From positions 496,001 through 560,000 of the forward strand of contig CAJXLT010000002.1 in NCBI GenBank assembly GCA_913056365.1: a stretch of DNA of 64,000 nucleotides, written 5' to 3'. The DNA comes from an uncultured Paenibacillaceae bacterium (GTDB lineage: Bacteria > Bacillota > Bacilli > Paenibacillales > K13). Positions 19,043-32,264 of the stretch are shown here, piece after piece. How positions within the stretch are numbered: position 1 is the stretch's first letter; each line of letters begins with the position of its first letter. The notes beneath the pieces are model-generated. The model ran no database searches and was not told the origin of the DNA. It worked only from the letters and a program-made list of their open reading frames with translations. Both the position numbers and the translations under genes were made by a program.

Positions 19043-20347
19043 CTATATTCGTCCCGCTTCCTGCAGCTTCTCTTGTGCCGCGTACCCTTTACCCCCTTGC
19101 CTTGAGGCTGACATCGCGTACACAATCAAAGCCAAATTAAACAAAGCACCGATCAAACAGTATGCCGCGACCGCTTCCAATGGAGAAGCATATAAACCAC
19201 CAATCAGAAGCGTACTCACGCGCGCAAGCATTAACCCTGTCTCATATACCAAAAACTTCTTCTGCAGCCCCAAAACAGTCATCAGCACGGTAGACGGCGG
19301 ATTAATGAAAGCAAAGAACAGCCATACGACAACCCAACGGGCATATTGTCCCGCTTCATACCAATTGTCCCCAAGCAGTACAGCAAATAAATCTGGTCCA
19401 AACATAACGAGGATTGCTGCAGGCACAATAGCCATGTACGCAAGCGTAAGCGTAATCCTGCGCGTCGCGGCAAACAAAGCTTCCCCATTCTTCAGCATCT
19501 CGCTTGCCCGCTGAAAGAACACCTGGCGAATAGACTGGCCGACGAGGCTGACAGGCAATTGCAGCAATCGCAAGGAAATCGCATAGAAGCCGGCTATCTC
19601 CGCGCCATAAAAGAAGATAAGGAAAAATGGCGGGATATTCTGTGAAATGGCATTAATGAAAGCTTGAAACATGCCGTACTTAGGAAACTCTGAATATTGA
19701 CCAGCAAGCTTCTTCATCCGCTTGGACCGCCAACCTTCGCGAAGCTTCATCTCCTGCTTGCGGCTCAGCTGCCTAGCAAGCACTAGTGTCGCGATGAACT
19801 GTCCCATCATCTGACCGCCGATCAGTCCTAGTGCATGCTTGGTGAACAGTCCGGCTGGAATCTGCACGGCTGTCACACCTCCGCTCCTGAACATCTGAGA
19901 GAGAGACAAGCTCTTGAATTGCTTATGACGCGTTCCCCAATAATTCAGACATTGATAGAGACCAACAAGCAAAGTGCTTATCGGCATGCACCATAGCAGC
20001 AGAACAGGCAGCTCGAACAGGCGGGAGAACGTTCCGCCCAACAGGAGGATGAACAAGGCGAACAATAAGCTCATACCTATTACGATCGTAATAGCTAGCG
20101 TAAGCAGTACAGAGGCATCCTCATCATCTTCAGGCAACACAATGGCCAGTTCATACCGCCAAGTGACGATTACAGACAAGATCGTAACCAAGGATGTGTA
20201 GATCGCAAAGTGGCCGAATGCTGACGGTTCATACAACCTGCTTAGCAGCAGCGAGGAAGCTAGCGTAACAAGCTGCGCAAGAGCAGTGCCTGACATGAGG
20301 ACAGAAATGTTTTTCAGGAAATCATTGTTCTTCAGTGTGGCTAGCAT
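19043..20347 (-). CDS. Polysaccharide flippase (Wzx/MurJ-like oligosaccharide flippase family)
   Basis: A 434-aa protein with about 12 to 14 membrane helices. The N-terminus (NISVLMSGTALAQLVTLASS, then SRLYEPSAFGHFAIYTS) is the hallmark of the polysaccharide_synt/Wzx family. It would flip undecaprenyl-linked repeat units to the outer face for the Wzy-like polymerases. ATG 20347 lies inside the 3' end of the nucleotidyltransferase gene (26-nt overlap) with AAGGATGGGATGA upstream, so the two are translationally coupled. Confidence 0.93.
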   Translation of the reverse strand: MLATLKNNDFLKNISVLMSGTALAQLVTLASSLLLSRLYEPSAFGHFAIYTSLVTILSVIVTWRYELAIVLPEDDEDASVLLTLAITIVIGMSLLFALFILLLGGTFSRLFELPVLLLWCMPISTLLVGLYQCLNYWGTRHKQFKSLSLSQMFRSGGVTAVQIPAGLFTKHALGLIGGQMMGQFIATLVLARQLSRKQEMKLREGWRSKRMKKLAGQYSEFPKYGMFQAFINAISQNIPPFFLIFFYGAEIAGFYAISLRLLQLPVSLVGQSIRQVFFQRASEMLKNGEALFAATRRITLTLAYMAIVPAAILVMFGPDLFAVLLGDNWYEAGQYARWVVVWLFFAFINPPSTVLMTVLGLQKKFLVYETGLMLARVSTLLIGGLYASPLEAVAAYCLIGALFNLALIVYAMSASRQGGKGYAAQEKLQEAGRI

Positions 20348-21548
20348 TCATCCCATCCTTCACCGTATTCCTTGCGCTTCCAGTCAATGCCGCTGCCTGT
20401 GACTGCTTCTTACGCATTCGCCACAGCCATAAGACAGGTCGCAGCGGGATATACAAAATATGCAGCGGCTTAGGCAACGGCAAGGTTTCCCAATCGAGAC
20501 GCCGCGGGAGCAACATTCCCAGCACATAGACAACCTTCTGCAGCGGTCGCTTCAGCAACAGCTTATAGCGCACATCACTTGCTCCGCCAATAACGTCCAT
20601 TGCCGATCGCACGATTCTCAATACATAGCCGCTTGGCGGTTGGTTCCTGACATCTGACAAGTTCGTACACAGCAGTTGCTCGCACAAGACCATAGCCTGT
20701 TCACCGTAATGACCGACCTTATACACTTGCAAGATGCGCATGAGCTGGTCATGATCACGCTGTTGCCTGAACAGTCGGTCCATGTCTGCAAGCCAACGCA
20801 GTCTGAACCACCCATGGCGGGAACCGTGTGTCACAAGACTGAAGCACATATGCTCCTGACCCAAGTAAGCGATCGACGCTGGTGCAAGCGACAACAGTCT
20901 GCGATGCTCCCACAGCTCATCGAAGGCCGGCTCACGATCAGATCTGCCGTTCATCCGCCAGTGCAGCTCAATTTGCACCTTATTCCCGGGATGGATGTAG
21001 GACTTGTGATAATCCCGCCCTGGATCCTTCCGCAGTCTGAAGATGAAGGGAGTCGGTTCCGCAACGGACTGCTCATATCCACAGCTTTGCAATAGATGGT
21101 CTGCCCGCTCCATATCTGTCGGTGACACCAACATGTCTAAGTCCTTGGACGTTCTCATCGAGAGATCCCCATACAGCGCTTCGGCAAGAACCGGCCCCTT
21201 CAGTACAAAGAAGCGAATGCCCTGCTGCTCGAAGCATTGTCCCACCCGCTGCAGCTCGCCGCATAACTGGAGCATCATGAACGAATTTCTGCGATATTCA
21301 GCGAATAATGCTTGCATCACGGATGGCGGGATTGCAGGGTGACTCAAGCGCTTCAAGGATAGATAGACTGCCGGATATACCCGATGATGAACAACCAATC
21401 GAAGGAAATCATCCCAATCCCAGTGCGGTGTACTGTCCAGCAGCTCAGAAGGAAGCGACGGATTGTTGTCCAGTCCGACCAAAGCCAGCAGCAGTCTTAG
21501 CTCACGCGAATAAGCATCAACTGCAACCGGTAATTCAACCTTACTCAC
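20322..21548 (-). CDS. Nucleotidyltransferase family protein (PF14907-type), lasso/EPS associated
   Basis: A 408-aa protein of the NTP_transf_5 type. The segment QGIRFFVLKGPVLAEALYGD then RTSKDLDMLV holds the GxS-like loop and the DxD metal-binding pair of a minimal nucleotidyltransferase. QIELHWRMN further on is a conserved third acidic region. Homologues occur in EPS clusters and in lasso clusters such as paeninodin, where the gene is called N. GTG 21548 follows GGTTGGAG. Here it sits in the EPS operon, not in the lasso operon 5.6 kb upstream, so it could serve either system. Its substrate is unknown. Confidence 0.8.
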   Translation of the reverse strand: MSKVELPVAVDAYSRELRLLLALVGLDNNPSLPSELLDSTPHWDWDDFLRLVVHHRVYPAVYLSLKRLSHPAIPPSVMQALFAEYRRNSFMMLQLCGELQRVGQCFEQQGIRFFVLKGPVLAEALYGDLSMRTSKDLDMLVSPTDMERADHLLQSCGYEQSVAEPTPFIFRLRKDPGRDYHKSYIHPGNKVQIELHWRMNGRSDREPAFDELWEHRRLLSLAPASIAYLGQEHMCFSLVTHGSRHGWFRLRWLADMDRLFRQQRDHDQLMRILQVYKVGHYGEQAMVLCEQLLCTNLSDVRNQPPSGYVLRIVRSAMDVIGGASDVRYKLLLKRPLQKVVYVLGMLLPRRLDWETLPLPKPLHILYIPLRPVLWLWRMRKKQSQAAALTGSARNTVKDGMNASHTEEQ

Positions 21549-21562
21549 TACACTCCAACCTT

Positions 21563-22909
21563 TCAGCCGATCACGCGCAGTACTTCTTCCTGAACGGACC
21601 GCGGGCTTCGGTTCATCGACGGTCTTCCGACCGAATAATACGCGAATCCAGTCTGCTCCAGCTGTTCCTGTGTAAATACATTGCGGCCATCAATCAATAT
21701 TGGCTGACGCATAGAGCGTTCCACCTGCTTCAGATCCGCAATGCCGAATTCTTCCCATTCGGTCAATAAGCATAACGCATCCGCGTCTTCTGCAGCCTCA
21801 TACGCATTAGAGCAGCGATGCAGGGAATCATCTGCTACCGATTCAGCGAATCGATCCATCGCTACGGGATCATACACCTTCACTCTCGCTCCGCTTGCCA
21901 GAAGCATCGGTACGATCTCCAACGATGGCGCATCGCGCACATCATCTGTATTCGGCTTGAAGGCGAGTCCCCAGACTCCGATGGTCTTGCCTTCCAGCCC
22001 GTTAAGCACGGTCAACAACTTGTTGAAAATATTGTATCGCTGTGCATGGTTCACATCGACGACAGACCGCAGCAGCTTGAAGTCATATTCGACATTCCCT
22101 GCAATTTGAATGAGCGCCTGTGTATCTTTGGGGAAGCACGATCCGCCATAGCCGATCCCTGCTTGCAGGAAGGCTTCGCCAATACGCCGATCCATGCCCA
22201 TTCCCTTGGCAACCTGCTCTATATTCGCACCAACCTTATCGCAGATGTTGGCGATTTCGTTAATAAACGATATTTTGGTAGCTAAAAATGCGTTGGAAGC
22301 ATACTTGATCATCTCAGCGCTGCGAATATCTGTCATGACGATCTTCGTATGCATCGGATCATGAAGTGCAGCAACACGCTCTGCTGCTCGCTCGTTATCT
22401 GATCCGATTACCATGCGATCAGGGTGGAAAGTATCCTGAATGGCTGAGCCTTCGCGCAGAAATTCCGGTATGGAGACAATATCGAATGGATGCACGGTCA
22501 ACGCGCGAATGATCGCACGTACCCGGTCATTGGTGCCGACCGGAACCGTGCTTTTGACCGCGATGATTTTGTATCCGTTCATCGACATCGCAATATCTCG
22601 CGCAGCTTGTTCGATGAACTGCAAGTCAGCTTCGCCGCTTGGCGATTGCGGCGTACCGACAGCTATGATGATCAATTCCGCTGTCTGAACCGGTGTTGTC
22701 AGATCCGTTACAAAGGAAAGTCGACCCGCTTCCCTATTATTGCGAATCAGCTGCTCCAAACCAGGCTCATAGATCGGTGACTGGCCCAGATTCAGCTTCG
22801 CAATCTTCGCTTCATCGCGATCGACACAATGGACTTGATTCCCAAGATCGGCAAAGCATACACCAGATACTAGTCCAACGTACCCCGTGCCCAATACAGT
22901 TATATTCAT
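21563..22909 (-). CDS. ugd: UDP-glucose 6-dehydrogenase
   Basis: A 448-aa enzyme that oxidises UDP-glucose to UDP-glucuronate with two NAD+. The Rossmann motif is ITVLGTGYVGLVSGVCFADL, the substrate domain is PEFLREGSAIQDTFHPDR, and the catalytic Cys is in GIGYGGSCFPKDTQAL. GLAFKPNTDDVRDAPS is the C-terminal NAD/UDP-domain signature. ATG 22909 follows GGGAG by 8 nt; an upstream in-frame GTG is less likely. It is 28 nt downstream of galU, so UTP-to-UDP-GlcA synthesis is encoded contiguously and feeds the 4-epimerase and C5-epimerase-like genes. Confidence 0.96.
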   Translation of the reverse strand: MNITVLGTGYVGLVSGVCFADLGNQVHCVDRDEAKIAKLNLGQSPIYEPGLEQLIRNNREAGRLSFVTDLTTPVQTAELIIIAVGTPQSPSGEADLQFIEQAARDIAMSMNGYKIIAVKSTVPVGTNDRVRAIIRALTVHPFDIVSIPEFLREGSAIQDTFHPDRMVIGSDNERAAERVAALHDPMHTKIVMTDIRSAEMIKYASNAFLATKISFINEIANICDKVGANIEQVAKGMGMDRRIGEAFLQAGIGYGGSCFPKDTQALIQIAGNVEYDFKLLRSVVDVNHAQRYNIFNKLLTVLNGLEGKTIGVWGLAFKPNTDDVRDAPSLEIVPMLLASGARVKVYDPVAMDRFAESVADDSLHRCSNAYEAAEDADALCLLTEWEEFGIADLKQVERSMRQPILIDGRNVFTQEQLEQTGFAYYSVGRPSMNRSPRSVQEEVLRVIG

Positions 22910-22937
22910 GAAAGTCACTCCCACTTATATGATGAAT

Positions 22938-23828
22938 TTAACCTATCTCCTTGCGCACCGCTTCACGATTAAGCAGCTCCTCCAGCGCTTTCAACAACGG
23001 TGTTCGAAGCTCCTCATTGCGAACAGCGAAATCGAGTGTCGTTAGAAGGAAGCCCAGCTTCTCCCCAACATCATAGCGAGTGCCTTCAAAATGATAGCCA
23101 TACACAGATTGCTTCTCATTCAGTTGTTGAATCGCGTCTGTCAATTGGATTTCACCGCCTGCGCCCACTTGCTGGAAGGATAGACATTCGAAGATTTCAG
23201 GAGTCAATATGTATCTGCCCATAATAGCCAGATTAGATGGCGCGCTGCCCGGTTTCGGTTTCTCTACAAACTTACGTACTTGGTACAGTCTTCCCTCTCT
23301 TGAGATTGGGTCAATAATTCCGTATCGGCTAGTGTCCTGATCGGATACCGGCTGTACGCCAATAACCGAAGATTGTGTCCCCTCATAATGCTCAATCAAC
23401 TGCTTCAAGCAAGGTCTATCTGCAGCAACAATGTCATCGCCAAGCAGAACAGCAAACGGCTCATCGCCAATGAACCTTCTTGCACACCAGACAGCATGTC
23501 CTAATCCCTTCGGTTCCTTCTGTCGAATATAGTGAATATCGACTGAAGACGATCGCTGCACTTCCTCCAACAGTTGCAGCTTGCCCTTCTCAGCTAGATT
23601 GCTTTCCAATTCGAAGGCGTGATCGAAGTGGTCTTCGATTGCCCGCTTGCCTTTCCCAGTCACGATAATAATGTCCTCAATACCTGACGCAACAGCTTCC
23701 TCTACGATATACTGAATCGTAGGCTTATTAATGATCGGCAGCATCTCCTTCGGCATCGCTTTCGTTGCTGGCAAAAATCGGGTTCCTAATCCTGCAGCGG
23801 GAATGATGGCTTTTCTCACTTTTTTCAT
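22938..23828 (-). CDS. galU: UTP-glucose-1-phosphate uridylyltransferase
   Basis: A 296-aa GalU/GtaB-type enzyme making UDP-glucose. The signature [19 protein letters not shown] is followed by [20 protein letters not shown]. Later, AVLLGDDIV (metal/uridine site) and [20 protein letters not shown] are both conserved. ATG 23828 follows AGGAGG by 10 nt. It is the first gene after the structured 308-nt gap that follows the BY-kinase-like gene. Confidence 0.96.
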
Positions 23829-23844
23829 TTACTGGATTCCTCCT

Positions 23845-24080
23845 AATCCTTTCTCTACATATATGCTGGTAATTTGGAATTCCCAGCTCTGCCGTCCCCA
23901 CCGGCGAACAGAACAGCTCGAAATTCCAATGAGGCAGAAGTAGAAATGAACGGGCATTCAACCCATCCTCACGCCATACCCTCGACGATATACGTCTAAG
24001 GTCGAATCACCCACAGCATGACCGAGTGCCTACATGGATAAAGGTGTAGTAGACATTACCTATCTATTATTCATATTTAA
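23845..24080 (-). ncRNA. Candidate eps-associated RNA (EAR) antitermination element
   Basis: The 308-nt gap between the BY-kinase-like gene and galU holds no gene. In the transcript sense it contains several helices. The strongest, at about 23871-23929, pairs TTGGAATTTCGAGCT with AGCTGGGAATTCCAA (13 of 15 plus a wobble). A GGG-TTGAATG-CCC hairpin lies just 5' of it. In Bacillus eps operons the EAR element sits at the same place, right after the epsA-epsB-type genes, and allows polymerase to read through later terminators. Position and structure suggest EAR here, but I could not check the covariance model. A different leader structure is possible. No T run follows the helix, so it is not a terminator. 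Confidence 0.45.
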
Positions 24081-24136
24081 TAGTTTTTTCCTATTTACAT
24101 GCAACACGAAATACACTTCAGCCAAATACCCTCCAC

Positions 24137-24823
24137 TTAACTTTCCACAGCCTCATAGGTATTGCGACCCTTCGATCGCTTCGGTTTGACATCATTCAGA
24201 ACGACTCCCAGCAGATTAGCTTGAACGTGATTCAATGCAGCCTTCGCTTTCAGTATTGCTTGTTTCTTCACTTTGCCTGCACTTGCAACTAACAGTACAC
24301 CATCACTCTTCGCCGCTACTACAGCTGCATCTGTGACATGAGAAACAGGGGGCGTATCCAATATGATCATGTCATACACTGCCTTGAGCTCCTCCATCAA
24401 TTCCGTCATCCTGATTGCTGACAGCATCTCCGAAGGATTCGGTGAGATTGGGCCCGCGGTCAACACCGACAGGTTGGCGATGGACGTATCCTGTACCATA
24501 TCCGCTATGCTGCTTTGCTTGGCAAGCACAGTAGTCAACCCGCCCCGATTGTGTTTGTTGAACAGCTTGTGAATGACGGGATTCCGTAAATCAGCATCGA
24601 TCAGCAGCACATTCAATTCCTTATGGGCGAATGCTACAGCTAAGTTGATCGCCGTTGTTGTTCTGCCCTCTTGTGCAACAGAGGAAGTAATGACGACAGA
24701 TTTCAACGGATGGTCCGGAGAGCAAAACTCCAAGTTTGTTCGTAACAGCCGATAAGCTTCTGATACAGTGGAATACGGATTGCGTTCCATAATAAGAATT
24801 CTCTCACTGATTGACCGTTGCAT
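24137..24823 (-). CDS. BY-kinase-like ATPase (CpsD/CapB/EpsB type) with substituted Walker A lysine
   Basis: A 228-aa cytoplasmic partner of the Wzz-like protein that tunes EPS chain length and export in this family. The N-terminus SEAYRLLRTNLEF is typical. The Walker A' motif VLLIDADLRNP (Asp76, Asp78) and Walker B MIILDTPP are intact. The Walker A loop reads AQEGRTTTA: the invariant Lys is Arg54 (codon AGA, one base from AAA). Only one C-terminal Tyr (Tyr223, NTYEAVES) replaces the usual Tyr cluster. The start at 24823 has GGAGG 9 nt upstream and overlaps the preceding gene by 20 nt. Family is certain; kinase activity is doubtful. Confidence 0.92.
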   Translation of the reverse strand: MQRSISERILIMERNPYSTVSEAYRLLRTNLEFCSPDHPLKSVVITSSVAQEGRTTTAINLAVAFAHKELNVLLIDADLRNPVIHKLFNKHNRGGLTTVLAKQSSIADMVQDTSIANLSVLTAGPISPNPSEMLSAIRMTELMEELKAVYDMIILDTPPVSHVTDAAVVAAKSDGVLLVASAGKVKKQAILKAKAALNHVQANLLGVVLNDVKPKRSKGRNTYEAVES

Positions 24824-25568
24824 ATGGTTGTTCCTCCATCCGGTTTTTTGTCTTTTTCCGCCTTCTCCCTTGTTCTAAATCTCTTTTCTTAATCTTCGGG
24901 ATGACCCCATATGTAGGCAACCCGAGTACTGCCGCGACATCCTGCTCGGTGCGTATGGAATCATCCATATATTCGAGCAAGAAGGTAAGACCTGCCCCGA
25001 GGATGAAAGCTGCAACAATGCTTACCAATATATTAAAGTACGGGCTGGTGCCAACTGGAACAGGGCGATCGGTCAGCTTGGCGTCATTCAAGACTTCTAT
25101 ATTATCGATTTTCATAATTGCCGGGATAGACTCTTGGAACACCTTCGTCACCGCGTTCACAATGTTCACAGCCCTCTCATGGGACGAATCAGTTACGCTG
25201 AGTGTCATGACCTGCGTTTCGTTCAATGAACTGACATTCACTTTCCGAATCAACTGATCGGATGACATATTCAGCTCGGGGTACTGTGCTTCCACCTGAT
25301 CCATAATCGCTCTAGATTTAATAATTTCCTTGTATGTATTGACCAGCATAATATTGGCCGTAATCTCGCTTGCATTCAGCGGCTGTGTAGGGAAGAAGCT
25401 GTCAGCTGCCTTATTGACAATCATTTTGGTTGACGCTTGGAACGTCGGCTTGGCAACTAGGAAGCTATATGCCGCAGCTACAGTGCTAGCAAGTATGACG
25501 ATAAGCGCAATCATCCATCCTCTTCTTCGCAACATCGTTCCGTACATCTTCAATTCATTCGTCTCCAT
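24804..25568 (-). CDS. Wzz/CapA-type chain-length regulator and kinase activator
   Basis: A 254-aa membrane protein with two transmembrane helices flanking an extracytoplasmic Wzz domain. TM1 (WMIALIVILASTVAAAYSFL) is near the N-terminus. The second (NILVSIVAAFILGAGLTFLL) follows the proline-rich PVPVGTSP. The C-terminal tail is very basic (EQGRRRKKTKNR), a region that contacts the BY-kinase in relatives. ATG 25568 follows TGGAG by 5 nt. It is the first gene of the EPS operon, and two palindromic operators lie 109-161 bp upstream of its start. Confidence 0.92.
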   Translation of the reverse strand: METNELKMYGTMLRRRGWMIALIVILASTVAAAYSFLVAKPTFQASTKMIVNKAADSFFPTQPLNASEITANIMLVNTYKEIIKSRAIMDQVEAQYPELNMSSDQLIRKVNVSSLNETQVMTLSVTDSSHERAVNIVNAVTKVFQESIPAIMKIDNIEVLNDAKLTDRPVPVGTSPYFNILVSIVAAFILGAGLTFLLEYMDDSIRTEQDVAAVLGLPTYGVIPKIKKRDLEQGRRRKKTKNRMEEQPYATVNQ

Positions 25569-25676
25569 ACGTTCTCCATCCACCCTCTATTTGATCTGTT
25601 ATTGTGCCAAAGGACTCATAATTCATAGAAGCAAGAAGTAACCTATACTAAAGTTCATCAATATTCCGCAATCGAT

Positions 25677-25914: not shown

Positions 25915-27150
25915 GTGAAAGGGTTAACACAATTTTTCCATACTAAGATGCTGGACATTCTGCATGCTCTGAAGCAGCCGCTAACGATCAAAAGATATAT
26001 GCTCGCAATCAGTTGCCTCACTCTGATAGTGGCAGCCATCCTAATAGGCGTTGCTGTCTTGAGACAACAATCGGAAGGAGCTTATGTGCGTCATGATGCG
26101 GCTATCGCCACAGCCCATTCCGTCCCTGACTTCAGAGCCTATTACGAGCATTCCGCGAACCCTGCTCAGAATAGACCTGATCTGTATGAGAAGCTGAGGT
26201 CAGGATCGGATGACGTCACCATTCTTGTACTAGGGGACACTATTGGAGCTAGCGCCGGTGTGACTAACGTACAGGATACATGGCATTACCAGCTAACAAG
26301 CGCCCTCTCAAGCATATATAGCGCCACCAGCTCCATCCACACCTTGGCTACCGGCAGCGATACGGTGATGGACGGCTTAGTCGATTATCACCTGACACCG
26401 ACAGCTGATGCGTACGATTTAGTCATTCTGTCCTACGACTACCCCAATCAAGAACAGCTTTCATACGCGCAATTCGCCCGTGCCTATGAGCAATTGATCC
26501 ATACAATTCGTAAGGATAAGCAATATCCCGAGTTTTACTTATTAGTCGGGCATCAGGTTCACGACGAAACCTACCTCCAGATCATCGCGAGACTTGCTGA
26601 ATATTACCATCTGGAAGTGGTCAATATGAACGAAGCGTTCGCTGATTCCGAATTGACAATCGACACGCTTACCTCTAATGGTGGCTTGCCGAACGCTGTT
26701 GGCTACCTGGTTTACCGCGGGGCCATCCTGCGGACGATTGAGGAACAATTACAACAGCAAAAAACAGTGTATCGAAATGACAAGCTCCCGCTGCAGCAGC
26801 TCGATGGCGAACCTGTTCTTCTCAATGACTTCACTGCTTCTGACGGCTTCCAGCATACTAACAACATCCATTGGTCAGACCAAGCTGAGGAATCACTATC
26901 CCTTCAGATGAACAATGAACTTCTAGGAATTATGGCTTATCACACATACGAGAGCGGCATTGTAGATGTGTACCTTGATGATCATAGGGTCGCTTCAATT
27001 GATTTGTACGGCCCTAATCGCATTTCCATACACTGGATATCGCATCCCGCAGCTTCCTCCGCTAAGGAAATAACATTGCGAGTTACAGGGAAGAAGTCAA
27101 GTAAGTCAGTTGGCACGAAAGTAGGCATTATTGGGGTGGTAGCTAATTGA
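25915..27150 (+). CDS. SGNH-like EPS-associated protein, membrane anchored
   Basis: This 411-aa protein has a short cytoplasmic N-terminus, one transmembrane helix (about 26-48, MLAISCLTLIVAAILIGVAV) and an ectodomain with an SGNH/GDSL-hydrolase core. The block I segment reads VTILVLGDTIGASAGVT, where the usual GDS nucleophile is GDT, so the catalytic Ser may be replaced by Thr or lie elsewhere. A later NAVGYLVYRGAI occupies the place of the DxxH block without a clear DxxH. It could be an O-acetyl-handling or purely structural EPS accessory protein. GTG 25915 follows AAGGAG by 11 nt. It ends tail to tail with lasso B2, overlapping it by 8 bp. Confidence 0.7.
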   Translation: MKGLTQFFHTKMLDILHALKQPLTIKRYMLAISCLTLIVAAILIGVAVLRQQSEGAYVRHDAAIATAHSVPDFRAYYEHSANPAQNRPDLYEKLRSGSDDVTILVLGDTIGASAGVTNVQDTWHYQLTSALSSIYSATSSIHTLATGSDTVMDGLVDYHLTPTADAYDLVILSYDYPNQEQLSYAQFARAYEQLIHTIRKDKQYPEFYLLVGHQVHDETYLQIIARLAEYYHLEVVNMNEAFADSELTIDTLTSNGGLPNAVGYLVYRGAILRTIEEQLQQQKTVYRNDKLPLQQLDGEPVLLNDFTASDGFQHTNNIHWSDQAEESLSLQMNNELLGIMAYHTYESGIVDVYLDDHRVASIDLYGPNRISIHWISHPAASSAKEITLRVTGKKSSKSVGTKVGIIGVVAN

Positions 27151-27661
27151 CTCGTTGCTTGTTCACCCCGCTAGCTTTGTTCGCATAGTTAGCGAATTGA
27201 CCAACGACGGTATACCGCTCCATTCCTTCGGCACCGGTCCATATTCGATTGCCGCTTCGCAGCCAAGCATGTGCAGTTAATCTGCCGTCAGCTTCCCTGG
27301 CGGTTCCCATATATAGCGTGCTGGATATGCCGCGCTTCGCCAACATGGTCATCGCAGCGATAGCCATCACTAAGCACCTGCTCTCCCACAGTGTATACTT
27401 GCTCATGGTGCGTACAGCTCTTGAGACAGTCACTTGGATCTGCAGCTGCTCTTCCGTAGTCATATAGGGCGTTTCCTGCATATATGCCCCTAATTTCGGC
27501 GCAATCTTGGAGAAGGGAAGCCACTTCAATATGCGAGCCCAACCGAGAAGACAATAAGCCTCGACATACAGTCGTTTCTGCTGATCGGGCACAGCGAGAA
27601 ACTTGTAGGCTTTGCTAATAACCCCCGACCGGCTGCTGCTATCCGTGTATTTCCGCTGCAA
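27143..27661 (-). CDS. Lasso peptide leader peptidase B2 (transglutaminase-like)
   Basis: A 172-aa protein of the lasso biosynthesis B2 (McjB C-terminal) family, the cysteine protease that removes the leader peptide after B1 presents it. The catalytic Cys96 is in LWESRCLVMAIA and His131 is in LTAHAWLRSG; the following NRIWTGAEG is the usual B2 context. A TTG at 27661 overlaps the B1 3' end by 23 nt; its RBS is weak, so the exact start is uncertain. It is the last gene of the sulfotransferase-C-A-K-B1-B2 operon and lies against the convergent SGNH gene. Confidence 0.9.
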   Translation of the reverse strand: MQRKYTDSSSRSGVISKAYKFLAVPDQQKRLYVEAYCLLGWARILKWLPFSKIAPKLGAYMQETPYMTTEEQLQIQVTVSRAVRTMSKYTLWESRCLVMAIAAMTMLAKRGISSTLYMGTAREADGRLTAHAWLRSGNRIWTGAEGMERYTVVGQFANYANKASGVNKQRVN

Positions 27662-27941
27662 CCTTGATCAACTCTTCCTTCTTTAACATCTGCAGGAAAC
27701 TTACGACTTGTTCTTGACAAGTTACTTCATCAATGTCATATTCATCCAGAAGCGCTTCCATCAAAGCTTCGATCCGAATTGGAGAAGCGAGCAATTCCCA
27801 GATCCGCCCGCCTACATTGCCCAAATTATAATATTTTCCATTCTTAACACTCATCATGACCTTCTCACCGTCCATGTTGCTAACTAGCAAGCCTTCCGTT
27901 TGTACGACAGTACGGTCGAGTGAGATCTCCTTCTCATCCAT
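27639..27941 (-). CDS. Lasso peptide leader-binding protein B1 (PqqD-like RRE)
   Basis: A 100-aa PqqD-family RiPP recognition element that binds the leader of precursor A and delivers it to B2 and C. Family features are SVKNGKYYNLGNVGGRIWEL and the downstream helical DEYDIDEVTCQEQVVSFLQM. Its ATG overlaps the stop of the kinase gene (ATGGATGA arrangement), so translation is coupled. Length and neighbours are exactly those of split B1/B2 Firmicute lasso clusters. Confidence 0.93.
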   Translation of the reverse strand: MDEKEISLDRTVVQTEGLLVSNMDGEKVMMSVKNGKYYNLGNVGGRIWELLASPIRIEALMEALLDEYDIDEVTCQEQVVSFLQMLKKEELIKVAAEIHG

Positions 27942-28857
27942 TGTTCACTACTTCCTTTCTAACTGTATCTACGACCGTGTCAGCCACCTCTGCTGCAAGA
28001 AATTGTTGGCTAGGTCTCCTTAATTGATACGCAGAAATATGATCGGCAAGCTCCGTCACGAAGGAGAAGTGCCACTGATCCATCCCGAATGCAGGAATCA
28101 AAAATGGGCGAAAGGTGTGCTGCATGAACATTCTCAGCTTTCCCAATCCGCTCACCTCTTCTGCTATCGGATGAAGCGTCTGTGATTGTTCCAGCTCCAT
28201 AACACCACGCAGAGGAATCGGTTGCGATTGAAATTGCCAGTCCACTGCAATCCTAAGTTTGTCAGGATGCTTGCCAGTATCGCTCACAACTCGCTCCATC
28301 AGCCCTAGGCGCTGTAAGCTGTCCGACCATAAATATTGTGCGGGATAGGACGGCGTAACTACCGGGCTCCCTCCAGACAGCGACACTGCGATAATTTCAT
28401 CGCTAAGCAGCGAATATCCCCTCTGCATCAAAGCCGCAGCCAAAGTTGATTTCCCCGCTCCTGATACACCGACTATCGCATAGGCACTGCCTTCTATCAT
28501 AACAGCACTGCCATGCAGCGCCAGCATGCCTCGCTGCAACAAAATAGCTGCCATACATGTGCTGGTTACGCATTGACGCATAATCTCCACATCCGCATTA
28601 GCCTCGGGCGATATCCCGATACGCCGTCCTTCCTCGACAGCAAACACCGCGACTCCTGCGACGTGTACGACCAGCACATTGTGTTCCACTATCAGATTCC
28701 GATTATGCAACCGCTGCTTCCAATTAGACAAGTCCACGAATCGAATCCAAACATCCGCTTCATCATCGTAAGCAGCGGACAATTCCGGTATGTGCAGCTC
28801 ACTGGAGATGCGCAGACCGAATGCCTTATACATGGCAGATGCAGTAACATCGTTCAT
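27934..28857 (-). CDS. HPr kinase-like lasso peptide kinase K
   Basis: A 307-aa member of the HPrK-related kinases found in lasso clusters. In the paeninodin system the homologue phosphorylates the C-terminal Ser of the precursor. The P-loop is [18 protein letters not shown] (Lys136), preceded by LHGSAVMI and followed by LLSDEII, the acidic motif of HprK-type kinases. ATG 28857 has GGAG 8 nt upstream. A longer frame to 28941 would run through a terminator hairpin and is rejected. The precursor ends in Ser, consistent with this tailoring reaction. The kinase lies directly after the precursor gene. Confidence 0.9.
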   Translation of the reverse strand: MNDVTASAMYKAFGLRISSELHIPELSAAYDDEADVWIRFVDLSNWKQRLHNRNLIVEHNVLVVHVAGVAVFAVEEGRRIGISPEANADVEIMRQCVTSTCMAAILLQRGMLALHGSAVMIEGSAYAIVGVSGAGKSTLAAALMQRGYSLLSDEIIAVSLSGGSPVVTPSYPAQYLWSDSLQRLGLMERVVSDTGKHPDKLRIAVDWQFQSQPIPLRGVMELEQSQTLHPIAEEVSGLGKLRMFMQHTFRPFLIPAFGMDQWHFSFVTELADHISAYQLRRPSQQFLAAEVADTVVDTVRKEVVNNG

Positions 28858-28878
28858 CTCGTTCACTCCAACTAGTAA

Positions 28879-28921
28879 GAAAAAAAATGGGCCCTTATAC
28901 AGCCGAAGCCGCATAAGGGCA
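28879..28921 (-). terminator. Terminator/attenuator between lasso precursor A and kinase K
   Basis: On the minus strand GCCCTTATGCGGC pairs with GCTGTATAAGGGC around a TTCG loop, followed by CCATTTTTTTTC. It lies 27 nt after the precursor stop. A partly effective terminator here would give excess precursor transcript over the downstream enzymes. Confidence 0.8.
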
Positions 28922-28947
28922 ACGCTTAAGTAGACTGACAATTGCGC

Positions 28948-29079
28948 TTAGCTGTTGTACAGGTCTGCATCACTAGGGGTAGCCCAGTCAATGTTCTTCC
29001 AGCCTGGACCTTCCATCGTCATGTTCACATTCAGCACTTCTAGGTTTGGAGCAGCCCACTCTTTCTTCGTGTTTTGCAT
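28948..29079 (-). CDS. Lasso peptide precursor A (paeninodin-like)
   Basis: This 43-aa precursor starts at ATG 29079, 8 nt after AAGGGGG. The leader MQNTKKEWAAPNLEVLNVNM has the RRE-binding motif (W/Y)xxPxL at WAAPNL. The penultimate leader residue is Thr21 (TM), as required for B2 cleavage. The core after TM is EGPGWKNID followed by WATPSDADLYNS, 21 residues. The acidic Asp9 would close a 9-membered macrolactam with the N-terminus, leaving a 12-residue tail ending in Ser21. Alignment with the TM-AGPG...D arrangement of paeninodin supports this register. If cleavage were one residue later, an 8-residue ring G1-D8 is possible. It lies between cyclase C (30 nt upstream) and kinase K. Confidence 0.93.
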   Translation of the reverse strand: MQNTKKEWAAPNLEVLNVNMTMEGPGWKNIDWATPSDADLYNS

Positions 29080-29109
29080 AGTTCTCACCCCCTTCCCGTA
29101 CTATTCCGG

Positions 29110-31038
29110 TTATGCATGCTCACGGATAAAGCGATAAGCAATAAGACTTCTCATCAACAGCCTAATACTTGGATGACTAGCGTAATCCGGACTTGGTGGT
29201 TGAGCAATCTCGGTGAGTGCTTGTCGAACAGTGCCAAGGTCCATGTAATACGCAGCCTTATCATCCTGCAGCATGCCGTGAACCTCTGCTACAAACTGCG
29301 GCCATTGCGGCAGTATGCGATGGAGCCAATCTGCACCTTGCACACCGCGTACGCGCTGATTTAATCGTACAGAATCCGGCAAATAATCCCGGGTTGCCCG
29401 TCTGATCAAGGATCGATCCATCCCTTGTTGAACGAACTGCTCTACAGGAACAGCGAGGCAAAATCGGATGACGCGAAGATCGCCACTCGGATCACGCTCG
29501 CGAACACCGTACCGGAGCGAAAGACTCGTACTCATGACACCGTTCTTGTTAGCGATAGTGAGATTGGCAAATTTCCTTCGCCTTACATCGAACGAATTAA
29601 GCGAAGCTTCGCCGTGCAGCTCCTGTTCCTTAATCCTTGTCATCACCTCGTACTTCTGCTCCAATTCAGGATGGACGAGCGGCAGGACCGCCCCCTCCTT
29701 ATCTGTACCGCTGCTTGCTGCTAGCCCGAACGCCTTCCGGGCAAGAATAGACAGCATACGGCTGCGCTTGATCTGCTTGTACCCGCAATACAACCGCAGC
29801 TCCTGATAAAGCCGCAGCCACTGTAATCGTCTTAGCAGAACCGTATAATAATCGATAGCTGGTCCCCATGAGATCGTGAAGTTGCCACGAGCGCCAGTAA
29901 GCAATACCCCGACTTGCTCCTTGCTTGCACGCTCATAGATGCCTCGAATCCAAAAGGAGTTCTCATAATACTTATATGGCGTACCAAGCAGGTCCAACCA
30001 GCTGTCAATCTCTGTGTAGGGGTCTCTTCCTTCGAAATCCAAATAACTCGGCTTAATATTGCCAATATGCTCTACGGTCTGCTCAATATACGGTCGTTCA
30101 TTCGCAGCCATTCGCTTGTTCGTCCAATCCTCGAAATCCGCAACCGGCACATAACTATACGTGTGCAGGGATTTGTCCTGTTCACTAAGCGCTCTAGCAG
30201 CAAGGCTGGCCACTGTTCCTGAATCTAATCCGCCGCTTAACGTCGCCCCAACCTGTCTGTGTGTACGAATGCGCGCATGAACCGCAGACCGCAGCACATC
30301 CCTGAACGCTTCCTCATATTCCTCATTGGAGCCGAGCTTAAGAGGTTGTTCCGGAATGAGTTGATCGTAATGTGTATAGTGGATGCGTCCTTCCTTCACG
30401 ACGAAGCTATGGGCCGGAGGAAGCTGAACTATGGATTCGAACGCAGTAGCGTATAAGTCCGTGGACTCCATCATACCGGGGATCGCCAGAAATTCAGCCA
30501 TCCATCTTTCATTCAACCTGCGGTTCACCCAAGGCAGGGCAAATAGCGGAGCCAGTGCTGTACAGAAGCTGAACCGACCTTGTGCAAAATGATAATATAA
30601 GGTCCGCATCCCTGTCTGATCACGTGCACCGAATAATGTGCGTTCCTGCTCATCCCATATAAGGAAGGTGAATTCGCCAACGAGCTGAGCAGGCGCGTCC
30701 GTTCCCCATTTGTCATAGGCTAACAAGATCAATTCACCGTCACCGATGATGCTTCTCCGCCTGTGCTCCACCTGCAGCAGATCGCACAATGTGTCTCGAT
30801 TATCCAGAATCGCATCAGCTGTTATGTAGCGTGAACGCTCCTTGTGCTGCATAGGCATCACCTCCGTAATCGATTGCGGTGTGATCCATCGTGCGTGGCA
30901 GCCGAGGTAAGCATGATCTGTACATATCGCCGCACTGTGATCGGCAGGAAATCGCTGGAGCGCACACATGAGCTTGGCGCCAATCTCCGAGCGAATGGGC
31001 TCGTCATGAAAGTGTACGAATCCGGCAATCGCGCTCAT
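29110..31038 (-). CDS. Lasso cyclase C (asparagine synthetase-like)
   Basis: A 642-aa asparagine-synthetase homologue that adenylates the ring-forming acidic side chain and closes the lasso macrolactam. The N-terminal domain starts MSAIAGF. Residue 2 is Ser and not the glutaminase Cys, so no ammonia is made, as expected for lasso cyclases. The synthetase PPi loop is LSGGLDSGTVASLAARAL (Ser268-Ser273). The ATG overlaps the sulfotransferase stop (ATGA), coupling the two genes. The precursor gene follows 30 nt downstream. Confidence 0.95.
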   Translation of the reverse strand: MSAIAGFVHFHDEPIRSEIGAKLMCALQRFPADHSAAICTDHAYLGCHARWITPQSITEVMPMQHKERSRYITADAILDNRDTLCDLLQVEHRRRSIIGDGELILLAYDKWGTDAPAQLVGEFTFLIWDEQERTLFGARDQTGMRTLYYHFAQGRFSFCTALAPLFALPWVNRRLNERWMAEFLAIPGMMESTDLYATAFESIVQLPPAHSFVVKEGRIHYTHYDQLIPEQPLKLGSNEEYEEAFRDVLRSAVHARIRTHRQVGATLSGGLDSGTVASLAARALSEQDKSLHTYSYVPVADFEDWTNKRMAANERPYIEQTVEHIGNIKPSYLDFEGRDPYTEIDSWLDLLGTPYKYYENSFWIRGIYERASKEQVGVLLTGARGNFTISWGPAIDYYTVLLRRLQWLRLYQELRLYCGYKQIKRSRMLSILARKAFGLAASSGTDKEGAVLPLVHPELEQKYEVMTRIKEQELHGEASLNSFDVRRRKFANLTIANKNGVMSTSLSLRYGVRERDPSGDLRVIRFCLAVPVEQFVQQGMDRSLIRRATRDYLPDSVRLNQRVRGVQGADWLHRILPQWPQFVAEVHGMLQDDKAAYYMDLGTVRQALTEIAQPPSPDYASHPSIRLLMRSLIAYRFIREHA

Positions 31039-32264
31039 CGTCTATTCCCTCCCAGAAGATAGGAAGCCGCGAAGCGGGACAGCGTTCGACTGAAGGGGAT
31101 GAAGGATTTCATACGGTCAAGCTTACGGCGAGAATTTTCATATTTCTTACGAAAGCGGTCCAGTTCTATGTAGCTCCTCTCCAGCCTGTTCTCCAGCGAA
31201 CGAAGTGTGCTTTGCAGCTGTTGTACATTCGCCTCCGGCTCAGGTGCTGCAGCGATAGCATGCGCAAGCTGTTCAATGCCGACTTCAGCTTGCATGCGAT
31301 ACTGCGGCTGCCATGTACAGCCAGTCGCTTCTTCCAACTGCCTGGTCTGCTTGGCAAGCAGGTCATGATCCGGTTCTTCTGGGAATCGCTTGCCCGTCCA
31401 GCGCTCTGCTTCCTCCAGCACATCTGCATACCCCAGATCGCGAAACACTTGAGCGCCTAGCACTTCGCCGTACAGCGCCACCTCATCCTTATCAAGTACC
31501 GTCTGCCATCCGTTCACTGACTGCTGATGAGGCTCGTTATATCTGTGCAGAAACGGGTCGCCGACTCCCATACTATAGAACATGCCAGACTTATCGGTAT
31601 GTGCGAAATTGCCGTAATTCTCAATTCCTTCTTCATAAGTGAGCTCCAGAAATTCGAACAGCTTAATCATCTCATTCTGTGGTGACTGAACTAATCGTTC
31701 ATAATGAAGCCGATAAGCATTCGGATGATTATCGGAGAAATAATGTATGTACCGCAACAGCCCAATCGTAATATCTGCCATCTTGATATGAAATTTATCC
31801 CCTCGCAGATCGTGTAACAGATCAAACCGATCATGGACATGACGGTTAACCTTCTTGAATGAAGCAATCACATCTAGCGGATTGCGAATCAGCCATATAC
31901 GGCGGGATTGCGGGAAGAGCCGATCGATAAATTCCAAGCAATAATAATATCTAGGTGACTTGTCTATCACCATACGCGCATGACAGCTATGAAGCAGTCC
32001 GTTATACACCGAACGGGCGAACCTCCGGCATGCTTCATCGAATGCTTCCTCTGTCAGCACCCCGTTGAAAAACTGCTGCAGGATTGAGGTACCGCCATAA
32101 GAACGGTATGATTGATGCTTCAGGTCATATAAGCTCATAAGAAACCACATCTCTTGTGAAGCGAATATTTGGCTGTGATTTTGCAGCATGACAGTCGTTA
32201 ATGAACTGCCGCTGCGAGGTGTACACAGCAGAAAAACCAGATTTTGTCCCTGTGACGTAATCAA
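31035..32264 (-). CDS. Sulfotransferase family protein with C-terminal coiled coil
   Basis: A 409-aa PAPS-type sulfotransferase. The 5'-phosphosulfate-binding loop is LLCTPRSGSSLTTVMLQNHS near the N-terminus. RIWLIRNPLDVIASFKKVNR is the 3'-phosphate-binding strand-helix, and YRLHYERLVQSPQ is the usual third motif. After about 330 a long charged helix (LRSLENRLERSYIELDRFRK) forms a coiled coil. TTG 32264 follows AAGAAGGGGG by 8 nt; a longer frame to 32363 would include the operator and lacks an RBS. It heads the lasso operon. It may sulfate the lasso peptide or the uronic-acid EPS made next door. Confidence 0.85.
   Translation of the reverse strand: MITSQGQNLVFLLCTPRSGSSLTTVMLQNHSQIFASQEMWFLMSLYDLKHQSYRSYGGTSILQQFFNGVLTEEAFDEACRRFARSVYNGLLHSCHARMVIDKSPRYYYCLEFIDRLFPQSRRIWLIRNPLDVIASFKKVNRHVHDRFDLLHDLRGDKFHIKMADITIGLLRYIHYFSDNHPNAYRLHYERLVQSPQNEMIKLFEFLELTYEEGIENYGNFAHTDKSGMFYSMGVGDPFLHRYNEPHQQSVNGWQTVLDKDEVALYGEVLGAQVFRDLGYADVLEEAERWTGKRFPEEPDHDLLAKQTRQLEEATGCTWQPQYRMQAEVGIEQLAHAIAAAPEPEANVQQLQSTLRSLENRLERSYIELDRFRKKYENSRRKLDRMKSFIPFSRTLSRFAASYLLGGNRR

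Follow-up and report, generated by a model that had tools for sequence, protein, structure and literature searches.

A sulfotransferase-headed lasso peptide operon conserved in Paenibacillales and its candidate sulfation site

What does a sulfotransferase do at the head of a lasso peptide operon? The window, a stretch of 64,000 nucleotides from an uncultured Paenibacillaceae bacterium (assembly GCA_913056365.1, contig CAJXLT010000002.1, positions 496,001 to 560,000), carries six genes on the minus strand, from 32264 to 27143. They encode, in this order, a sulfotransferase (ST), a lasso cyclase (C), a precursor (A), an HprK-like kinase (K), a leader-binding protein (B1) and a leader peptidase (B2), as the original prediction, made from the sequence of the window, had stated. 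The translational coupling of ST to C that it claimed fits the sequence, the stop codon of ST and the start codon of C overlapping as ATGA; K overlaps B1, and B1 overlaps B2. The precursor scores above the cut-off of its paeninodin family model, and B1 and B2 above the curated cut-offs of theirs; the homologues of C, B1 and B2 all lie in the operon. The best overall explanation, and a fairly probable one, is that ST is a dedicated peptide sulfotransferase dependent on 3'-phosphoadenosine 5'-phosphosulfate (PAPS) and most likely modifies Thr12 of the predicted core peptide.

An ST homologue (E 1e-25 or better) was present in 75 of 392 Paenibacillales genomes. The other 74 homologues are 46-73% identical to the window ST, and all 75 genomes (the window and 74 fetched loci) have the gene order ST-C-A-K-B1-B2. 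The 37 genomes of one genus contributed 12 further ST loci in 11 genomes, every one in a lasso cluster and 11 in the usual gene order. The remaining one, L185 (8295-16800), is a divergent cluster with the order adenosine 5'-phosphosulfate (APS) kinase-ST-K-B1-B2-N-D-C, where N is a nucleotidyltransferase and D the exporter; its precursor gene follows C, and the likely core has 15 residues, HGAGGGFDGTTISAS, with a likely 8-residue ring. Outside Paenibacillales no ST was found: 398 Bacilli genomes gave 18 matches, all within that order and in 3 of 146 genera. A scan of named genomes returned two loci, both in Paenibacillus, and no new ST locus was added by 104 genomes of the family of genome G067 together with 8 of the family of G019. 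The search of relatives for a conserved sulfotransferase-lasso pairing that had been proposed with the original prediction thus found it in 88 loci (the window, L032, L034-L107 and L174-L185; L033, a copy of L095, was left out). The ST-lasso operon is conserved, far beyond chance.

These loci were compared with a non-random set of 60 lasso loci without ST, which were stronger matches to C among the matches listed. Fifty-nine were counted, L139 being dropped as an overlap and L111, which holds an ST pseudogene, being counted as ST-less. The precursors of six ST-less loci were unparsed at first; four were later read by eye, and L121 and L165 stand outside the counts. A spurious frame in the ST locus L104 accounted for one parsed row, which was removed. 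The stretch fetched was about 19 kb long for the majority of ST loci and 16 kb for the majority of ST-less loci, and the counts of neighbouring genes hold for these stretches only. Three related loci, L109, L110 and L111, have ST deleted to differing degrees, with C, A, K, B1, B2, N and D remaining, and are natural knock-outs.

APS kinase makes the sulfate donor PAPS. Of the 88 ST loci, 72 have a gene for this enzyme within the fetched stretch, against none of the 59 ST-less lasso loci (Fisher p 1e-26, kinship uncorrected). It usually stands convergent after D and is co-directional elsewhere, for example in L055, L070, L082, L175 and L178. The copies beside the ST clusters of genomes G327, G386, G063 and G399 match PF01583 above its cut-off, and the copy in G063 is that genome's only strong match. 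Among 14 genomes examined outside the ST set, one (the ST-less G188) had no APS kinase anywhere. The window genome has a single APS kinase, on contig 5, and so has the sister species G001, on the same contig as its lasso operon and about 22 kb from ST.

The ST protein itself has the features of a PAPS-type enzyme. Across 89 sequences, its P-loop PRSGSS, a glutamate and the element RNP....S.K are each conserved with at most one exception. We take the first and the last to be the 5'- and 3'-phosphosulfate binding motifs, and the glutamate presumably matches the catalytic glutamate of TPST2. An AlphaFold model of ST (30 sequences; mean predicted local distance difference test score 84.3) came closest in fold to human and tick tyrosylprotein sulfotransferases (Z 21.5-22.6, root mean square deviation 3.5-4.0 over 258-264 residues), TPST1 being the top match at Z 22.6, and gave Z 20.8 and 19.8 with the OLS and CurM sulfotransferase domains. 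Sequence profiles reversed this ranking (CurM 99.4 bits, OLS 90.1, TPST about 48-52). CurM and OLS domains act on aliphatic hydroxyls. Given the TPST folds and the CurM and OLS sequences, both peptide substrates and aliphatic hydroxyls are thus in reach of near relatives of ST. Human TPST1 and TPST2, CurM and OLS resemble the window ST in fold, but their identity to it in the structural alignments is only 16-24%, they have other substrates, and ST has in addition a C-terminal helical tail outside the matched range 1-288. The pairing in 88 loci, the distribution of APS kinase genes (72/88 versus 0/59) and the conserved sulfotransferase motifs support the earlier idea of a sulfated lasso peptide. 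It is very probable that ST acts on this lasso peptide; the evidence for the presumed sulfation is comparative.

Which residue would be modified? Position -2 of the window leader is Thr, and a penultimate Thr is described as a rule for lasso leaders (PMC10368454); the cut that it predicts leaves a core of 21 residues, EGPGWKNIDWATPSDADLYNS, with a ring from Glu1 to Asp9. The core ends in NS, and all 98 precursors from ST loci have Ser as their final residue. The first residue among the 87 ST loci counted is Ala in 65, Tyr in 15, Gln in 3, Glu in 2 and His in 2, so that Glu1 as the ring amine donor is confined to the window and its sister species. By rule, we took the ring Asp to be the one at position 9 or, failing that, at 8, 7 or 10. 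The 98 precursors that the 88 ST loci encode (57 different cores) all have Ser or Thr three places past it (Asp+3). The same was seen in only 3 of 56 parsed precursors from ST-less loci, namely those of L109, L110 and L111, all with ST remnants, and in none of 14 additional ST-less precursors read by eye. With the remnant loci set aside, Ser or Thr at Asp+3 occurs in 0 of 67 precursors from 54 ST-less loci; ST-less cores of the AGPG...PD type mostly have Gln there. On the cyclase tree this position flips between Ser and Thr at least seven times, and no third residue appears in 87 ST loci, as expected if the hydroxyl matters. We lean towards Thr12, the Asp+3 residue of the window core, as the sulfation site.

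A second hydroxyl residue of the tail has to be weighed against it. ST might sulfate Tyr19 in the acidic tail DADLY, in the manner of tyrosylprotein sulfotransferases or RaxST, and yield a lasso version of a sulfatyrotide, a named class of ribosomally synthesized and post-translationally modified peptides (RiPPs; PMC9484694). We regard this as unlikely, although it is the strongest alternative. Acidic residues stand ahead of Tyr19, and a hydroxyl residue is found ten places past the ring Asp (Asp+10) in 94 of the 97 precursors from ST loci that reach that place, Tyr in 81 of 87 loci counted. Yet six of the 98 precursors have no tail Tyr (L063, L080, L081, L174, L175 and L185), and three of these, with intact ST, have cores without any Tyr (L063, L175 and L185). 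L175 and L185 keep both ST and a nearby APS kinase gene, and L185 has Thr at Asp+3. The core of Paenibacillus sp. APC 4171, described as the same as the P. polymyxa CR1 core, likewise has no Tyr and keeps Ser at Asp+3 in the published account (PMC11381294). On the cyclase tree at least six changes fall at the Tyr19 place, giving Thr, Gly, Val or no comparable residue. Conversely, an acidic D-x-D-x-Tyr tail with no Ser or Thr at Asp+3 occurs in the ST-less loci L114, L118, L119, L123 and L129. L080 and L081 carry a Tyr at position 7 of the ring rather than in the tail, which makes a shifted site possible there.

We had at first favoured Tyr19, since two loci seemed to have lost ST and Tyr together. 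The apparent loss of ST in L063 was rejected on finding ST open from a TTG start, with the stop lying upstream, and a joint loss was rejected because Tyr persists in L109 and L111, two of the three loci with ST remnants; Tyr19 was then demoted to a rival site. Four of the ST-less loci with the acidic tail (L114, L118, L119 and L123) also combine a cyclase region of double length with three to five precursors per locus, the cores being of the types AGFG...DFTYVDGKLVDLDVYDS and GGPNG/GGKNG.

Several observations weigh against the overall reading. Within the clade in which ST decays, it is Tyr19 that varies (Val in L063, with ST intact; Phe in L110, with ST deleted), and Ser12 stays; as published, CR1 and APC 4171 likewise have His at position 19 and keep Ser12 (PMC11381294). 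Such changes fit Tyr19 as a target under relaxed selection. The nearest folds, moreover, are those of Tyr and not of Ser/Thr sulfotransferases. The Asp+3 alignment depends on a ring Asp placed by rule only. When independent pairs of loci were compared, the Ser/Thr link gave five pairs, of which two agreed, none opposed and three showed no difference (p 0.5), and the tail Tyr averaged 1.1 pairs in favour and 1.1 opposed; the loci are for the most part closely related, and this test has little power. The fetched stretch around the window ST contains no APS kinase gene. In all, 16 of the 88 ST loci, two of them truncated at contig ends (L063 and L174), are without a close copy. Ten of these 16 form one Paenibacillus subclade (L061-L064, L066, L069, L071 and L073-L075), into which the three ST-loss loci also fall by precursor sequence. 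In the window K, residue 184 is Glu where 142 of 147 kinases have Asp (the second Asp of an S/T-D-D stretch), and residue 205 is Tyr where 141 of 147 have Lys; both are unique to this kinase.

A different possibility is that the operon is decaying in this genus, with no D or N behind B2, an altered K and little or no product. We consider this quite unlikely. N and D are indeed missing behind B2 in both species of the genus, and the window K, with its Glu184 and Tyr205, shares 45% identity with that of the sister species, against 72% for the cyclase. On the other hand, ST is 74% identical between the two species, and precursor A has the same start and 93% identity in both. Change in ST and C is concentrated at third codon positions (identity 0.44 versus 0.79-0.86), both frames are open in both species, and an open K-D pair is kept elsewhere in the genome.

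This K-D pair also bears on export. The original prediction had pointed to a missing exporter. D is absent after B2 in both the window operon and the sister species (L079), so that part holds, but the absence is a lineage-specific loss: D lies in the fetched stretch of 83 of 88 ST loci, normally after N, and 53 of 59 ST-less loci have it. The other ST loci without D are that of G327 (L072) and the two cut by contig ends, L063 and L174. A search for an unlinked exporter, also suggested with the prediction, found an open lasso-type D gene elsewhere in the window genome: it adjoins the gene of a second HprK-like kinase on contig 5 (L169, 9135-11945). The possibility of no exporter at all was thereby ruled out by whole-genome search, and a reading of this D as two pieces with stops was ruled out because the region reads as one open frame of 618 aa, in which Walker A and LSGGE are present. 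The contig-5 D and K are 81% and 66% identical to the D and K of a second cluster, C-A-K-D, in G001, where neither B1 nor B2 turned up. The window genome yielded no C or A belonging to that cluster, nor did a precursor appear in the 400 bases around the start of the contig-5 K. The keeping of K and D without a peptide of their own is best explained if they serve the ST peptide, and we think it rather probable that the contig-5 exporter exports this peptide in trans. G327 shows a like pattern, with an ST cluster lacking D and a D in its second cluster.

Second clusters of the order C-A-K-D, with no B1 or B2 found, were also seen in the ST-cluster genomes at L108, L112, L127, L131, L136 and L140. 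Five of these six have cores of the type GGP(N/H)G...PDRNGKG. Such clusters may borrow B1 and B2 from the ST cluster.

The prediction had called the operon complete for a lasso peptide with a phosphorylated C-terminus, and the kinase gene and the C-terminal Ser are present; the change of a conserved Asp to Glu and of a conserved Lys to Tyr makes completeness doubtful. The window K keeps His145, Lys166 and Asp183. A His-Lys-Asp-Asp kinase motif is named in PMC9266682, and by our alignment it would correspond to His145, Lys166, Asp183 and residue 184. The contig-5 K has the usual residues at both altered places. Phosphorylation by the window K is thus uncertain, and a phosphate on Ser21 could possibly come from the window K, from the contig-5 K, or not be added at all. 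Mass searches for +80 Da in such clusters must tell sulfate (2397.993) from phosphate (2398.002). These are calculated [M+H]+ values, only 0.0095 Da (about 4 ppm) apart; the peptide without either group is expected at 2318.036.

Between B2 and an N-like gene of the window lie wzz-, wze-, galU- and ugd-like polysaccharide genes, and the sister species has homologues in like order between B2 and N. An earlier view that N was missing was dropped when this homologue was found at 20322-21548. It is 40% identical to the lasso-linked N of L080, a tree gives it no supported placement, and a similar gene lies in a polysaccharide cluster of G172, so we do not claim it for the lasso pathway. If the distant homologues of the window and L079 are included, 87 of 88 ST loci have an N homologue in the fetched stretch. 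One or more wzz, wze, galU or ugd homologues (in several loci only ugd) were found near 25 of 59 ST-less loci and 13 of 88 ST loci, the window included; examples among lasso loci are L116, L132, L145, L152 and L154. A polysaccharide neighbourhood is thus frequent in these clusters and is not evidence that ST acts on polysaccharide, and the suggestion that the peptide acts with the neighbouring polysaccharide was not borne out by these counts. A shared cell-surface role of the lasso and exopolysaccharide genes is worth testing. That ST acts instead on a later-joined group, such as a sugar put by N on the C-terminal phosphate, or on the neighbouring polysaccharide is improbable: the wide occurrence of N, the hexose addition to phosphoserine reported for the N of pseudomycoidin (PMC9266682), a match of ST to the nodulation sulfotransferase NoeE (124.7 bits, far under the curated cut-off of 500) and the polysaccharide genes next to the operon speak for it, but it leaves the Asp+3 rule unexplained, polysaccharide neighbours are commoner at ST-less loci, ST lies in the lasso operon in 88 of 88 loci and overlaps C in the window, and the window N is not clearly a lasso N.

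Returning to sulfation of the peptide by ST, we infer the following order of steps. B1 would bind the leader of precursor A. The only APS kinase of the genome, on contig 5, would take part in making PAPS, whose sulfate ST would pass to a hydroxyl group on a core side chain; Thr12, three residues past Asp9, is the likeliest acceptor. B2 would cleave after Met-Thr-Met, and C would join Glu1, through its amine, to the Asp9 side chain, closing the ring around the tail. Ser21 might be phosphorylated by the operon K or the contig-5 K, and export would proceed in trans through the lasso-type exporter beside the contig-5 kinase.

The features of the locus are listed in Table 1. The ST start at 32264 is a TTG preceded by AAGGGGG; the likely start in most relatives is a TTG about 15 codons ahead of the P-loop, and the assignment fits both this shared position and the preceding AAGGGGG. 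The window C, though under the NF033535 cut-off, is 46-72% identical to the C of ST relatives. For precursor A, an alternative upstream GTG at 29088 is less likely than the ATG. The start of K was put at an ATG because the longer frame, to 28941, would cross the hairpin between A and K. Five terminator-like sites were found in the region, against 3.9 expected from shuffles, and this hairpin is by far the longest; it may lead to more precursor than enzyme message. A survey for hairpins after A with a crude rule (43 of 98 precursors from ST loci versus 25 of 56 from ST-less loci) missed the window's own hairpin, and no conclusion was drawn from it. Downstream of B2 lies a convergent gene with a sub-threshold GDSL-lipase match.

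Table 1. Features of the lasso operon and its surroundings in the window
Feature	Coordinates	Strand	Remarks
ST, PAPS-type sulfotransferase, 409 aa, helical C-terminal tail	31035..32264	-	PF13469 94.7 bits (cut-off 27)
C, lasso cyclase, asparagine-synthetase-like	29110..31038	-	NF033535 350.6 bits (below cut-off 525); PF00733 91.8 bits
A, precursor gene, 43 aa, ATG start	28948..29079	-	NF033524 (paeninodin family) 57.5 bits (cut-off 27)
Predicted core, ring Glu1-Asp9	28951..29013	-	cleavage placed by the penultimate-Thr rule
Thr12 codon (ring Asp +3), best candidate sulfation site	28978..28980	-	Ser/Thr there in 98/98 precursors from ST loci
Tyr19 codon, second candidate sulfation site	28957..28959	-	hydroxyl residue at Asp+10 in 94/97 precursors from ST loci reaching it
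Terminator-like hairpin between A and K, 13 pairs then T run	28891..28920	-	predicted fold -22.0 kcal/mol
K, HprK-like kinase, ATG start proposed	27934..28857	-	weak HPr kinase matches, e.g. PF07475 29.8 bits (cut-off 33.3)
B1, leader-binding protein, PqqD-like	27639..27941	-	NF033536 130 bits (cut-off 80)
B2, leader peptidase	27143..27661	-	NF033537 101.4 bits (cut-off 33); sole PF13471 match in the genome
wzz-, wze-, galU-, ugd-like polysaccharide genes between B2 and N	21563..25583	-	context, not claimed for the pathway
N-like nucleotidyltransferase, 408 aa, in polysaccharide operon	20322..21548	-	PF14907 201 bits; lasso membership uncertain

The ST-headed arrangement is not new. A putative sulfotransferase gene at the head of some Firmicutes lasso clusters, and a nucleotidyltransferase gene between B2 and D, were reported by Zhu et al. 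2016, as cited in a 2021 review (PMC8498205), and ST and N genes were described in 2024 in the lasso operons of Paenibacillus sp. APC 4171 and P. polymyxa CR1 (PMC11381294). What is new is that ST co-occurs with APS kinase and that ST loci strictly follow a Ser/Thr rule at Asp+3, findings that narrow a sulfotransferase question on record since 2016 to one residue. In the open-licence PubMed Central literature we found no report of a sulfated lasso peptide or of the substrate of ST, which is weak evidence of absence. The chances are about even that these loci constitute a conserved Paenibacillales lasso family O-sulfated by the operon-borne sulfotransferase at the Ser or Thr three residues past the ring Asp, in most cases with a gene for the PAPS-making kinase close by. 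If so, its members would be, within the literature searched, the first lasso peptides known to be sulfated and the first RiPPs with sulfated Ser or Thr, some with a tail sulfate plus a C-terminal phosphate or phospho-sugar. Threonine sulfation is described as rarely identified, in insect hormones (PMC13369874). If the site is right, ST would represent a bacterial enzyme for the sulfation of aliphatic peptide side chains and would offer a new way to tailor lasso peptides.

Among known systems, RaxX/RaxST shares with the window the combination of a bacterial ribosomal peptide and a peptide sulfotransferase, the latter predicted for the window. RaxX is not a lasso peptide, and its sulfated residue is Tyr, whereas Ser/Thr is favoured as the site here. 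The paeninodin cluster is not known to contain a sulfotransferase, and it has its exporter in the operon. As far as the published descriptions go, paeninodin from Paenibacillus dendritiformis C454 is like the window peptide in its kinase-bearing Firmicutes cluster, its NF033524-type leader and its C-terminal Ser (Zhu et al. 2016, as cited in PMC8498205 and PMC9266682). Pseudomycoidin of Bacillus pseudomycoides has K and N tailoring genes of kinds like those of the window; its phosphorylation and the addition of hexoses have been demonstrated, and the parts of the report available to us do not mention a sulfotransferase (PMC9266682). Closest are the operons of CR1 and APC 4171, which, as described, have ST and N genes and Ser at Asp+3 and belong by precursor to the same family, but differ from the window in having Ala rather than Glu as residue 1, His at position 19 and N inside the operon (PMC11381294).

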